NCBI RefSeq assembly: GCF_037969765.1
Contig: NZ_CP150207.1
Location: 1,598,001 to 1,662,000, forward strand
Length of the DNA: 64,000 nt
Direction: 5' to 3'
DNA from: Paenibacillus sp. FSL W8-0186
GTDB taxonomy: Bacteria; Bacillota; Bacilli; Paenibacillales; Paenibacillaceae
A program made the position numbers and the translations under genes. This document shows positions 17,668-31,926 of the stretch, in pieces. Positions within the stretch are counted from its first letter, which is position 1, and every line of letters begins with the position of its first letter. The notes beneath the pieces were generated by a model. The model was given only the letters and a program-made list of their open reading frames with translations, did no database searches and was not told where the DNA came from.

Positions 17668-17684
17668 ATATTGGTGAATTGAAT

Positions 17685-17776
17685 AAACGGGAGCTTGGGC
17701 CAACCAGGCTGAGAGGATAGCTAATGCGCTGTCGACCGTAATACCTGATCTGGGTAATGCCAGCGGAGGAAACGTT
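17685..17776 (+). promoter_or_regulatory. TPP riboswitch (THI element)
   Basis: The conserved aptamer motifs are present in order: GGCTGAGAGG at 17707-17716, ACCTGATCTGGGTAATGCCA at about 17743-17762 and GCGGAGGAAACG after it. AACG/CGTT near 17686 and 17772 can form the closing P1 stem. It binds thiamine pyrophosphate and controls thiC. Confidence 0.95.
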
Positions 17777-17795
17777 CGAGCCTTTGTGTACACAG

Positions 17796-28340: not shown

Positions 28341-28713
28341 GAAGCCCCGGCAGTGCGGAGGCTTCTGAGAAATTGATTACGTAATGAAGTTGCTATAACC
28401 CCTTTAAGTGACCGTATACGAGCCTGTTCATTTCCTTAAGAACGGACTGAATGCTAACTTAAAGGGGGTTTTTAGCATGACACGGTTGTGGCCGGTATGC
28501 TACTGAAGCTGGTTGTTTTCATTGTTATCTTTACGGCGGCTATAATAAAAAAACCAACAGTCATTAAGCAGGCGAATTTGACGCCGGTCTTTTTTATGAA
28601 AGGCGCGCATCATCTGGTTGCTGAGCCAATTGGGCAATACAATCTCCTCCCGACTTTTCCCTATGTACGTTAGCATATGGGGAGAAGCCGTGAAGTGTGC
28701 AGGTCCATGAACT
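28341..28713. other. 373-base intergenic region after rdgB
   Basis: Contains the structured element at 28392-28476. The rest (28480-28713) holds an imperfect inverted pair, CTGGTTGTTTT near 28507 and AAAACCAACAG near 28550, and no gene I can support. Confidence 0.5.
28392..28476 (+). terminator. Terminator-like structured RNA with 47-base apical domain
   Basis: Positions 28397-28409 pair with 28457-28470 (one bulged G), closed by GCTA/TAGC at 28392-28395 and 28473-28476; TTTTT lies within the 3' end. The interior forms a second stem (28421-28429 with 28440-28448). Probably ends the rph-rdgB transcript. Confidence 0.5.
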
Positions 28714-29064
28714 CTATTGGCCCTCTTCTTCGTACCATTGCTCTAGCTGGGCCTGCAGCGCGCGAATTTCCGTAAGCAAAGAGATCAAGGGATAATTCTC
28801 TTCTTGTATTGCGGAGAATGCAGCTTCAAGCTCATTGATGTAGGCTAAGCCGCTTGTAATTTGCAGCGATTCCTGCAGCAGATCAAGCTGGTCGCATTCG
28901 GCAATCGCTTGCGGCAGAGATGGAACCTGGGCCGCGGTTAGCTTATCGATTTCTTTGTTCAGGCGCAAATTGAGGGCGCTTAGCTGGTAAGCGTAATCCG
29001 CAGGCATTTCTACAAAACGCAAATCGCTGCCCTGCTGCAAAATGACATATCTCATTAAGGACAT
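28714..29064 (-). CDS. Hypothetical helical protein, 116 aa
   Basis: I do not recognise this family. The product is acidic, mostly helical, rich in Leu, Gln and Glu, without signal peptide, membrane segment or Cys residues except one (AECDQL). It could form a coiled coil at about residues 28-110. AAGGAG lies 11 bases upstream of ATG 29064, and the frame has no competitor. It diverges from the sprT gene. Confidence 0.65.
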   Translation of the reverse strand: MSLMRYVILQQGSDLRFVEMPADYAYQLSALNLRLNKEIDKLTAAQVPSLPQAIAECDQLDLLQESLQITSGLAYINELEAAFSAIQEENYPLISLLTEIRALQAQLEQWYEEEGQ

Positions 29065-29192
29065 TTGTTTACAGTCTCCTTTTCAATTATTGCTACTTGA
29101 CAGTGTAGCTTAACAGGAAGTTAGAATTCAAGTACAAAGCGTGTTTGATCGAGGCCAGGAATATGAATGGCGGCAAGTAAGGGGGGATTTTC

Positions 29193-29666
29193 ATGACGGA
29201 TGAACAACTACAGGCCTGGGTCGAGGAGATTTCGCTTCGCAGCTTTGGGTTGCCTTTTCGCCATGAAGCCAGGTTTAACCGGAGGCTCAGATCGACAGGC
29301 GGCAGATATTTCATGAAGTCCCACCATATCGAGATTAATCCGGCCCAGCTGGCTGCTTACGGGGTAGAGGAAGTGGAGAAAATCATTAAGCATGAGCTAT
29401 GCCATTATCATTTGCATATTATGGGCAGAGGCTACAGACACCGGGACCCGGAATTCAAAGCGTTATTAAATCGGGTAGGGGGAAGCAGATACTGTCAATC
29501 GCTGCCTGGAGACCAGGGCAGAAGAACATTGCCTTATCGGTATATGCTCAAGTGTACAAGCTGCGGTATGGAATATTTGCGCAAACGCCGCGTTGATCCT
29601 CGGCGATACCGCTGCGGTAAATGCTCGGGAAGCCTTCATCTGTCGAGTTATGGGCAGCAGAATTGA
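29193..29666 (+). CDS. sprT: SprT-family zinc metalloprotein
   Basis: A 157-residue SprT-like protein (YdcK type). KHELCHYHLHIMG near residue 68 provides the HExxH-like zinc site (H-E-L-C-H), followed by RHRDPEFKALL. A C-terminal zinc ribbon has CTSCG near residue 126 and CGKCSG near residue 143. The eukaryotic homologue Spartan cleaves DNA-protein crosslinks; bacterial function is not settled. Start at ATG 29193 with GGGGGATT upstream. Confidence 0.88.
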   Translation: MTDEQLQAWVEEISLRSFGLPFRHEARFNRRLRSTGGRYFMKSHHIEINPAQLAAYGVEEVEKIIKHELCHYHLHIMGRGYRHRDPEFKALLNRVGGSRYCQSLPGDQGRRTLPYRYMLKCTSCGMEYLRKRRVDPRRYRCGKCSGSLHLSSYGQQN

Positions 29667-29735
29667 AGTAAATTGAAATAAGCACCAGAGCTGAAATGTG
29701 GTATACTACAAAAAAAGATAGGGAAGTGATCTATT

Positions 29736-29981
29736 ATGGCCAAGTCCAAAGCCAAACGAATGCGCGACAAATTAACGCGTGAAGGCAGACGCAACCCGGA
29801 ATTGGGGAGAAGCCCCTTTGCCGCAGCAGATTTAAGAACGAGAAGAACCAAAACCAAGCAAGAGCTGTTAAATCAAAGTAAGCATAAACAGAAGAACCTG
29901 ATCTCTTATTATGGAGATGATGGTTCTTTTTTGTTGGCAAGAAGCAGCTCGGCTTGTCATATATATGAAGTGGGAGCGTAA
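29736..29981 (+). CDS. brfA: YqkK/BrfA-like alternative ribosome-rescue factor
   Basis: An 81-residue, very basic protein: MAKSKAKRMRDKL, EGRRNPELGRSPFA, DLRTRRTKTKQELL, then SYYGDDGSFLL. From memory this matches B. subtilis YqkK, renamed BrfA, which recruits RF2 to ribosomes stalled on non-stop mRNA. BrfA is known to be made from a truncated mRNA because transcription ends before the stop codon. Exactly that layout is visible here: an intrinsic terminator at 29892-29932 lies inside the frame, 49 bases before the stop, so most transcripts would encode only about 63-65 residues and lack a stop codon. Its product would then be limited by tmRNA and rise when tmRNA fails. GGGAAGTGAT precedes the ATG. 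Confidence 0.68.
   Translation: MAKSKAKRMRDKLTREGRRNPELGRSPFAAADLRTRRTKTKQELLNQSKHKQKNLISYYGDDGSFLLARSSSACHIYEVGA
29892..29932 (+). terminator. Intrinsic terminator inside the BrfA-like coding sequence
   Basis: AAGAACC (29892-29898) pairs with GGTTCTT (29922-29928); ATCTC/GAGAT form an inner stem; T-run to 29932. The reading frame continues 49 bases beyond. Confidence 0.75.
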
Positions 29982-30044
29982 GGATCCAAATGGGAGAGGA
30001 GCAGCCGGCCCCGAAGAGCAATATGCGGACGGAGGCGAAGCAAA

Positions 30045-30125
30045 ATGAGTGCAGAGATGCTGATTCAACTGCTAGTACTTATCGTCATGCTCATCGAACT
30101 GGCGCGGCACCGAAAGGATTCCTGA
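30045..30125 (+). CDS. 26-aa hydrophobic small protein, possible holin-like/type I toxin
   Basis: A short frame too small for automatic tracks. It starts at ATG 30045 with GGAGG at 30031-30035, nine bases away, and encodes MSAEMLIQLL, then VLIVMLIEL and a basic tail ARHRKDS. One membrane helix followed by positive charges is the plan of the putative holin-like toxins and small type I toxins of Bacilli. A hairpin follows at 30135-30161. No antisense RNA could be identified by eye. It could instead be a chance frame, but the ribosome site and terminator argue for a real gene. Confidence 0.5.
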   Translation: MSAEMLIQLLVLIVMLIELARHRKDS

Positions 30126-30134
30126 AGTTCCGTG

Positions 30135-30161
30135 AAGGTCTGGCCTTTGGTGCCAGGCCTT
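30135..30161 (+). terminator. Hairpin after the 26-aa ORF
   Basis: AAGGTCTGGC (30135-30144) pairs with GCCAGGCCTT (30152-30161) with one G-T pair; weak T-rich tail. Confidence 0.5.
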
Positions 30162-30190
30162 TCCAACCCTTTTATGGCATGTCCATATTC

Positions 30191-30219
30191 TTGACTTTGC
30201 ATCAAAATCATGATAAATT
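30191..30219 (+). promoter_or_regulatory. Candidate promoter of the tRNA-Asn/Ser unit
   Basis: TTGACT (30191-30196), 17-base spacer, TAAATT (30214-30219). Confidence 0.45.
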
Positions 30220-30250
30220 ATACCGTAAATCTATAGTAAACAATTAGCGT

Positions 30251-30326
30251 TCCCCGATAGCTCAGTCGGTAGAGCACTCGACTGTTAATCGAGTTGTCAC
30301 AGGTTCGAGTCCTGTTCGGGGAGCCA
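30251..30326 (+). tRNA. tRNA-Asn (GTT)
   Basis: Acceptor arms TCCCCGA and TCGGGGA, anticodon stem CTCGA/TCGAG with loop CTGTTAA (anticodon GTT), T-arm GGTTCGAGTCC, CCA encoded at 30324-30326. Confidence 0.97.
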
Positions 30327-30333
30327 TGTCTTT

Positions 30334-30425
30334 GGAGAGATACCCAAGTGGCTATAAGGGGACCCTCTGCTAAGGGGTTAGACTGCGTAAGCGGTGCGAG
30401 GGTTCGAATCCCTCTCTCTCCGCCA
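30334..30425 (+). tRNA. tRNA-Ser (GCT)
   Basis: Acceptor arms GGAGAGA and TCTCTCC, anticodon loop CTGCTAA (anticodon GCT), long variable arm typical of class II tRNAs, T-loop GGTTCGAATCC, CCA encoded. Eight bases after tRNA-Asn, so co-transcribed. Confidence 0.97.
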
Positions 30426-30441
30426 CTATAGATTGAATCAT

Positions 30442-30472
30442 AAAGCCAAAGTTCTGATGGGCTTTTTTTTAT
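30442..30472 (+). terminator. Intrinsic terminator after tRNA-Ser
   Basis: AAAGCC (30442-30447) pairs with GGCTTT (30460-30465); long T-run to 30470. Confidence 0.7.
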
Positions 30473-30492
30473 TTCTATTATAAAAAAAGGGG

Positions 30493-30521
30493 TTGCCAAC
30501 GCTCGCGAACTTTGCTATACT
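30493..30521 (+). promoter_or_regulatory. Sigma-A promoter of the tRNA-Glu/Leu unit
   Basis: TTGCCA (30493-30498), 17-base spacer, TATACT (30516-30521), about 48 bases before tRNA-Glu. Confidence 0.75.
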
Positions 30522-30568
30522 CATTTTTGTTGTCGCTCCAAAAAAGACTTCACCTTAATTATAAATAT

Positions 30569-30643
30569 GGCCCGTTGGTCAAGGGGTTAAGACACCTCCC
30601 TTTCACGGAGGTAACAGGGGTTCGAATCCCCTACGGGTCACCA
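30569..30643 (+). tRNA. tRNA-Glu (TTC)
   Basis: Acceptor arms GGCCCGT and ACGGGTC, anticodon stem CCTCC/GGAGG with loop CTTTCAC (anticodon TTC), T-arm GGGTTCGAATCCC, CCA encoded at 30641-30643. Confidence 0.96.
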
Positions 30644-30812
30644 CTTTCATATATATGCTTCAGTAGGGTGAGAATCCCTTGGGGGTTCGTCGGAGCATCG
30701 GCTTCGGTAGGAATACTTCGCAGTCTCGAACGGAGAGAGAGTATCCCCTACGGGTCACCACTTTCATATATATGCTTCAGTAGGGTGAGAATCCCTTGGG
30801 GGTTCGTCGGAG
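30626..30812 (+). repeat. Perfect 70-bp direct repeat carrying the tRNA-Glu 3' end
   Basis: 30626-30695 and 30743-30812 are identical. Each copy begins with the last 18 bases of tRNA-Glu including CCA (ATCCCCTACGGGTCACCA). Offset 117 bases. The second copy has no upstream tRNA body. Confidence 0.9.
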
Positions 30813-30836
30813 TATTGAAGTATTATAACTTAATAT

Positions 30837-30919
30837 GCGGTCGTGGTGGAATGGCAGACACGCTATCTTGAGGGGGTAGTGGGTGTATACCCGTGGAGGT
30901 TCGAGTCCTCTCGACCGCA
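30837..30919 (+). tRNA. tRNA-Leu (GAG), copy 1
   Basis: Acceptor arms GCGGTCG and CGACCGC, anticodon stem CTATC/GGTAG with loop TTGAGGG (anticodon GAG), long variable arm, T-arm GGTTCGAGTCC. CCA not encoded. Identical to the gene at 34469-34551. Confidence 0.95.
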
Positions 30920-30934
30920 TTGATAACAAAGGGA

Positions 30935-30970
30935 AGAACCTTGCGTAAGCAGGGTTCTTTTGAACTTTTT
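30935..30970 (+). terminator. Intrinsic terminator of the tRNA-Glu/Leu unit
   Basis: AGAACCTTGC (30935-30944) pairs with GCAGGGTTCT (30949-30958), one G-T pair, GTAA loop, T-rich tail. Confidence 0.8.
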
Positions 30971-31028
30971 ATTACATCGAAATATATAGTAAAAGCAGCT
31001 TAAGGAATCTACATACGGTAAAAAGAAA

Positions 31029-31055
31029 AGCATCCTCGCCATTGGCGAGGATGCT
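31029..31055 (-). terminator. Intrinsic terminator of the HAD gene
   Basis: AGCATCCTCGCC (31029-31040) and its complement (31044-31055), ATT loop; the T-run is on the minus strand (AAAAGAAAA at 31021-31029). Confidence 0.85.
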
Positions 31056-31068
31056 CTATAATGGAGAC

Positions 31069-31926
31069 TTAAAGATCTAGAAGCGTATTTAAGGCATAGG
31101 CAACTCCGTGTTCGTTGTTACTGCGGGTAGTCAAAGTGCTTAGCCGCTTGACTTCCTCGACGGCGTTGCCCATCGCTACCTTTGTTCCAGCAATCTGAAA
31201 CATGGAAATATCATTATAACTGTCACCGATAACGATCGTATCAGCCATGTCGATATCGTAATAGGAAGCCAGAAATTGAAGGGCGCTTCCCTTGTCTGTT
31301 TCGGTCGATATGATTTCTAGCGTATGCTTGGCAGCGGCCGTTGTATGGACGAAAGGCTGATCGCGGAAATGATGGCGAATTCGATCCAGCTTCGCATCAT
31401 CATAAGTAAAAATTAACAGTTTATAAATGGGGCTCCCGGCTTGTACCACCTCACGAAGATCATCAATTTGCTTGAAGCCGAATTGTTGAAACTGGGTTTG
31501 CACACCGGCCTGCAGCGTATCTGCGTCGATGTCGGGATTGGCGCTGACAAGGATATCGATTTCGGCCTGGAGCTTGCCTTCTCCGCCACATGGTGAATAA
31601 ATGTCCTCCGGGCAAAATATTTCGAAATATACGTCCTGCTCCAATAAGTAACTTATGGATTCAGCAGCAATGGGGTGGGGAATCGGAGTCTCGTTCAGAA
31701 GACGTCCGCGCTCATCGTGGACAGCAGCTCCATTGGATGAAATGATCGGAATGGATAGATCCTCGCCAATTATTCCTTTCACATCAAAGCGGGCTCTGCC
31801 TGTGCATATCGTTACTTTATGATCCTCGCCGGACAAAATATTGCGAATGGCCGCGAGGCCCTCTGTGCTAGGCTTGCTCTCGGCGGTGAGCAAGGTTCCG
31901 TCCAAATCGATAGCAATTAATTTCAT
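31069..31926 (-). CDS. Cof-type HAD-superfamily hydrolase
   Basis: A 285-residue class IIB HAD phosphatase. The N-terminal IAIDLDGTLL is motif I with the nucleophile Asp, ISSNGAAV is the motif II region, DKGSALQFLASYYDI carries the motif III Lys and VIGDSYNDISMF near residue 236 motif IV. Members dephosphorylate small sugar phosphates or flavin intermediates; substrate not predictable. Monocistronic with its own terminator. Confidence 0.9.
   Translation of the reverse strand: MKLIAIDLDGTLLTAESKPSTEGLAAIRNILSGEDHKVTICTGRARFDVKGIIGEDLSIPIISSNGAAVHDERGRLLNETPIPHPIAAESISYLLEQDVYFEIFCPEDIYSPCGGEGKLQAEIDILVSANPDIDADTLQAGVQTQFQQFGFKQIDDLREVVQAGSPIYKLLIFTYDDAKLDRIRHHFRDQPFVHTTAAAKHTLEIISTETDKGSALQFLASYYDIDMADTIVIGDSYNDISMFQIAGTKVAMGNAVEEVKRLSTLTTRSNNEHGVAYALNTLLDL

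Follow-up and report, generated by a model that had tools for sequence, protein, structure and literature searches.

A BrfA-type ribosome-rescue gene in Paenibacillus with a conserved terminator-like hairpin inside its reading frame

The window, as we call the whole 64,000-nucleotide stretch of Paenibacillus sp. FSL W8-0186 DNA that was analysed, contains a small gene, brfA, whose reading frame passes through a hairpin and a T-run before it reaches its stop codon. The features of the locus are given below with what each call is based on.

29193..29666, + strand: sprT-like gene directly 5' of brfA, a neighbour and not a part of the mechanism (Pfam PF10263)
29699..29707, + strand: candidate extended -10 promoter box TGGTATACT, without a good -35 (sequence)
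29720..29731, + strand: ribosome-binding site AGGGAAGTGATC (sequence)
29736..29981, + strand: brfA open reading frame, ATG start, 81 codons plus TAA (open reading frame list, translation, match to PDB 6szs_y)
29736..29930, + strand: codons 1-65, ending in GDDGSF, the expected translated part of a terminated non-stop mRNA (predicted from the T-run position)
29891..29929, + strand: terminator hairpin within the brfA frame (fold, synonymous recoding, covariation)
29927..29932, + strand: T-run TTTTTT of the terminator, with the mRNA 3' end expected there or a few bases beyond (sequence)
29931..29981, + strand: tail of the frame with its TAA, past the T-run and probably rarely transcribed (codon-position pattern, tail identity)

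The candidate promoter box sits between the sprT-like gene and brfA. A promoter scan does not have the TGGTATACT box at 29699..29707 among its calls; by eye, TATACT- or TATAAT-like boxes are found at a comparable distance 5' of brfA in most of 30 loci, and a AAGGAGTGAT-type ribosome-binding motif is likewise seen in most of them. In several of the leaders of L023-L030 (75 nt or less 5' of brfA), an inverted repeat can be made out by eye between the TATAAT-like box and the ribosome-binding site, followed in L028 by a T-run; these repeats are possibly a second control point. On the 3' side of brfA the window carries tRNA genes. Two further small frames lie nearby, neither of which has a Pfam match. 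One, of 116 amino acids, lies opposite sprT (28714-29064, - strand) and has a counterpart at the corresponding position in 21 of 80 named loci. The other (30045-30125, + strand) has 26 codons for the hydrophobic peptide MSAEMLIQLLVLIVMLIELARHRKDS; it is preceded by a ribosome-binding-like GGAGGCGAAGC and followed by a GC-rich inverted repeat, and it is found in the same place in L031-L033. Elsewhere in the window, a TPP riboswitch (17677-17788, + strand) is barely above its gathering score (55.6 vs 54.3 bits).

Used as a single-sequence query, the window protein matches the BrfA chain of PDB 6szs_y at an E-value of 1.1e-5, in a gap-free alignment of residues 1-54 that pairs R25 and K49-H50. 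A family profile of 35 rows, some of them from Bacillus-like genomes and with the B. subtilis protein left out, retrieves B. subtilis BrfA at an E-value of 8.3e-17, and the sole other row stands at 0.92. Both searches bear out the sequence-only reading, which had called the product a YqkK/BrfA-like protein. Arg25, reported in all BrfA sequences (PMC6881298), is invariant in the 35 alignment rows, and 161 of 163 homologues have R at residue 25; the exceptions are L009, which is read from an upstream start codon, and L178, which has a two-residue insertion. The window protein also has the basic C-terminal part SKHKQKN with K49-H50, an mRNA-channel trait of BrfA, and 147 of the 163 homologues have a K followed by H or Y somewhere from residue 41 to the T-run. 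No Pfam or NCBIfam model covers the protein, and a match to the splicing factor SYF2 (E-value 0.038) was rejected as chance similarity in basic sequence. Among 24 relatives in the protein collection, those shown with a name are “hypothetical” or “uncharacterized,” and one of them is also named YqkK (Paenibacillus lentus); a further brfA match lies at 718434-718676 of the P. woosongensis record NZ_WNZW01000001.1. From these comparisons we identify the window gene as BrfA, a new member of a kind already known.

With B. subtilis BrfA (YqkK; PMC6881298, PDB 6szs) the window protein shares residues 1-54 without gaps, R25, R36, K49-H50 and its size. The two also have in common an in-frame terminator at about codon 62-65 and a genome with tmRNA, SmpB and RF2. 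They differ in the tail of the frame, which is longer here (81 codons vs 71 in B. subtilis), and in position, since brfA follows sprT in Paenibacillus and Saccharibacillus records, unlike in B. subtilis. They also differ in the central segment, SPFAAADLRTR here vs PSFSTHGR in B. subtilis. In the latter, F31, H34 and R36 contact RF2 Trp318 and A1492 (PMC6881298). The window protein has A31 and R34, with F28 nearby; only R36 of the three contacts is kept, and the engagement of RF2 must therefore differ in detail. These contacts are reported in one species and are not a family-defining trait. Across the family the central segment comes in several versions, of the FxxxDLRTR, WNGVNPV, DYGAISQH, PSFSTHER and RKPQTQVV types, and low interspecies compatibility has been reported (PMC6881298). 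One genus by handle (g8) has two very different BrfA types, MAKSAA...LRTRRTKTK (L028/L026; genomes G061, G132) and MARTQTQK...SQHTRIT (L195/L197; G050, G039), both with the in-frame terminator. This pair could be due to replacement, transfer or old paralogy.

We also asked which rescue partners the genome holds. A tmRNA gene is found at C1:207071-207434, above the family cut-off; matches to RF00023 below the cut-off also occur in archaea, so only those above it were counted. SmpB and RqcH are present. There are two PF00472 genes, one of which is RF2, matching the 6szs RF2 chain at an E-value of 7.4e-163, while the other reads as RF1; no third gene of this release factor family was found in the genome. 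ArfB (YaeJ) resembles BrfA in rescuing non-stop ribosomes, and it has a GGQ hydrolase domain of its own; BrfA is expected to work with RF2 as its partner, not RF1. An ArfB identity was rejected on the grounds that the window protein has no Pfam domain and that only two PF00472 genes exist in the genome. ArfA was rejected as well: Pfam PF03889 has no match in the whole genome (an E. coli positive control matched), and the window protein has no Pfam match. The likeness to E. coli ArfA would lie in RF2-dependent rescue, an origin from non-stop mRNA and being held down by trans-translation (PMC6881298, PMC8012679), whereas fold and contacts differ between ArfA and BrfA according to PMC6881298.

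The hairpin within the frame is far more stable than expected by chance. The RNA of 29885-29940 folds at -19.7 kcal/mol against a shuffle mean of -8.15 (z = -5.27), and none of 200 shuffles is as good. When brfA was recoded synonymously, none of 300 versions reached the real hairpin-plus-T score of -17.2, and 8 reached -9.5. The hairpin is therefore not a by-product of the protein sequence. A simple consensus terminator scan of 28600-31100 missed it, returning three sites against a shuffle mean of 2.8, which we attribute to the bulged stem. The sequence-only reading had put a hairpin and a T-run within the frame, 5' of its stop, and we find them there: hairpin at 29891-29929, T-run at 29927-29932 and TAA at 29979-29981, 46 nt beyond the T-run. 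It had also predicted that the active form ends near GDDGSF, at about residue 65, in agreement with the position of the T-run.

How widely is this gene distributed? Used as the sole query, the window protein has matches in 48 of 197 genomes of the family. A 17-row profile matches 171 of 392 genomes of the order and 55 of 398 of the class, and the 35-row profile matches 219 of 296 genomes of the order, 60 of 299 of the class and 10 of 398 of the phylum, none of those 10 lying outside the class (threshold E 0.001, E-values per genome; the genome samples overlap, and some absences may be diverged copies that were missed). Scanning the named genomes with a sequence pattern gave 125 confirmed relatives, and 80 of these were retained; the named relatives come from Paenibacillus, Saccharibacillus, Brevibacillus, Cytobacillus, Neobacillus, Fictibacillus, Virgibacillus, Ornithinibacillus, Lederbergia and others. 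In 25 of the 80 named loci sprT lies directly 5' of brfA, and these are 25 of the 27 loci labelled Paenibacillus or Saccharibacillus. The remaining two, L088 and L104, are titled Paenibacillus sp.; their BrfA resembles the Cytobacillus (L091) or Neobacillus copies, and the labels may be wrong. In the fetched flanks of the other named loci, none of five queries made from the window neighbours was found. The hairpin is kept in loci without these neighbours; the terminator tracks the gene and not its neighbourhood.

Across Bacilli, 162 of 170 distinct homologues carry an in-frame hairpin with a T-run (at least 5 T in 8) before their stop, at nearly the same codon; distinct means differing in the first 150 nt, and since many of the genes are closely related they are not 170 independent cases. 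L231, which runs off its contig, was excluded from the 170. That the hairpin would be conserved ahead of the stop among homologues had been proposed as a check by the sequence-only reading, and the alignment upholds it. By set, the in-frame terminator is present in 30 of 30 loci, 80 of 80 named loci and 35 of 40 regions around more distant matches. In 158 genes the T-run begins at codon 58-71 (median 63.7), with one exception, L069, for which the search took a second terminator at codon 82; in the same 158 genes the stop follows 7-274 nt past the T-run (median 40). The T-run begins near codon 56 in L202, L229 and L232. L202 and L232 are two BrfA-like copies in one genome (G302), and in both the frame continues past the terminator into a similar hydrophobic stretch. 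As a control we examined 144 other open reading frames, each at least 120 amino acids long, in 40 of the 80 named loci: 13 contain a hairpin-plus-T that reaches at least -9.5 kcal/mol within codons 41-90, compared with all 80 of the named brfA genes, whose T-runs all fall within codons 41-90 although the search extended to codon 110.

The stems themselves appear to covary across brfA homologues. In 47 distinct hairpins of 37 nt, 371 of 376 outer-stem cells are paired, and 1,000 column shuffles average 350.7 and reach 358 at most; the hairpins were chosen by folding and the sequences are related, which overstates their independence. There are 94 distinct outer arm pairs, for example AAGAACCAT/ATGGTTCTT, AAGGACGAT/ATCGTCCTT and AAGGTCGAC/ATCGACCTT. 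The protein, in turn, is constrained only as far as the T-run. Identity is 0.61 in the core and 0.13 just beyond the T-run (1,325 non-independent pairs). Among five close relatives, substitutions at the three codon positions, summed over 10 pairs, number 50/30/183 in codons 1-50 vs 31/37/24 in the tail. Such an end of coding constraint at the T-run is expected if most messages end there. Past the T-run the gene's own frame meets a stop after a median of 10.5 codons, compared with 12 in the other two frames (P = 0.011); stops are thus met a little earlier in the gene's frame, and this gives no sign that a long tail is selected for. The Saccharibacillus tail VDEK..AC is conserved, and its DNA carries, by eye, a promoter-like TTGAC box before tRNA genes. 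The same DNA is read in one frame in L026 and in another in L024 and L028. We rejected it as a coding tail, given the promoter-like DNA and the two reading frames.

Eight of the 170 homologues lack the in-frame order. In L190 and L192 the stop lies at the hairpin foot, 30-35 nt short of the T-run, and in L194 the frame ends at codon 54, with the stop within the hairpin. L203, L234 and L235 (genomes G554, G369 and G394, of one genus by handle) keep the hairpin with a TAA inside it, and the terminated mRNA would therefore contain a stop codon; we read these three as a natural escape from the non-stop circuit, in which BrfA should be made independently of tmRNA. A terminator was not found by the search in L198 and L230. 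Absence of tmRNA was considered as a cause of the lost order and rejected: five of the eight such genomes were tested (G288, G472, G253, G414, G554), and all five have SmpB and a tmRNA over the family cut-off.

In B. subtilis, BrfA together with RF2 rescues non-stop ribosomes, termination within brfA has been shown with a downstream lacZ, the truncated mRNA and SsrA tagging of the product have been shown, and BrfA accumulates only without SmpB (PMC6881298). By analogy, transcription of brfA in the window would normally stop at the in-frame hairpin. The mRNA would then have no stop codon, so that the ribosome would stall at about codon 65. As long as trans-translation works, the product would receive an SsrA tag and be degraded; an overload or loss of tmRNA-SmpB would let untagged BrfA of approximately 65 residues accumulate and take over rescue. 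This small basic protein would enter the empty mRNA channel and the A site of a ribosome stalled at a stop-less mRNA end and make RF2 release the peptide. The DNA itself provides the homology, the terminator-like structure in frame, its conservation and covariation, the loss of constraint beyond it and the presence of tmRNA, SmpB and RF2. Every sequence feature required for a circuit of the B. subtilis type is present here. RF2 recruitment, termination in vivo, tagging and induction are predicted from B. subtilis. The sequence-only reading had proposed that the same circuit exists in this organism. The BrfA homology, the terminator conservation and the three partners support that proposal, with the truncated mRNA, tagging and induction carried over from B. 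subtilis, and we consider a self-limiting non-stop rescue circuit built on BrfA very probably the best explanation.

Could the hairpin instead be an ordinary gene-end terminator that the frame overruns by drift of the stop codon, with no control of BrfA by trans-translation? The tail is not conserved as protein, as such an accident would have it, and the genes with a stop at the hairpin foot (L190, L192) or inside the hairpin (L194, L203, L234, L235) indicate that the order is not indispensable. Yet in 162 of the 170 genes no stop occurs before the T-run, while the other two frames past the T-run stop after a median of 12 codons, and in B. subtilis a gene arranged in this way has been shown to be functional (PMC6881298). 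An accidental overrun is therefore improbable in our judgment. The hairpin might also serve mainly as an RNase III site, the non-stop mRNA being made by cleavage, like that of E. coli arfA. For arfA a comparable outcome is known, and PMC11633108 ascribes an RNase III site to brfA; PMC8874680, on the other hand, gives a terminator in place of the RNase III site. Cleavage is further opposed by the T-run that follows the stem in all 162 genes (by the search criterion) and by the internal termination seen with lacZ in B. subtilis (PMC6881298), and we regard it as very improbable. That the 81-residue read-through protein is the working form, its amount merely reduced by the hairpin, seems to us scarcely credible. 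Five close relatives do have part of the tail and the position of the stop in common, but in these same five the third-position excess of the core is missing from the tail, tail identity is low among homologues in general, and the conserved tail of Saccharibacillus has promoter-like DNA whose frame differs between species.

Having weighed these alternatives, we return to the self-limiting BrfA circuit and to its range. Published accounts give BrfA a narrow distribution. One review states that it is limited to the Bacillus genus (PMC8874680), and another gives its occurrence as B. subtilis (PMC8327144). Among 2,633 Firmicutes genomes a 2024 survey records arfA in 5, and it mentions 10 species in the B. 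subtilis group (PMC11633108); we read its arfA column as including brfA. In a search of the open literature for BrfA and YqkK, the titles and abstract starts among the matches listed gave no wider range for BrfA and no paper pairing it with Paenibacillus. The novelty is thus one of range: by our genome searches BrfA appears far more widespread than in the published accounts cited. We lean towards the view that BrfA, far from being confined to Bacillus, is an old RF2-dependent system of ribosome rescue that is widespread within Bacilli, in Paenibacillales, Brevibacillus and Bacillaceae, with a near-universal terminator and an RF2-opening segment that exists in several versions, and that some lineages have left the circuit, their BrfA being independent of tmRNA.

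Should most Paenibacillales and many Bacillales indeed carry BrfA, it would be wrong to think that release-factor-dependent rescue is missing from nearly all Firmicutes beyond the B. subtilis group. For these groups, predictions of where tmRNA is essential and of how tmRNA inhibitors would fare as antibiotics would then change. The lineages without the terminator order offer natural experiments on the reason for the circuit, and the conserved in-frame terminator provides a sequence signature by which self-limiting rescue genes may be found.
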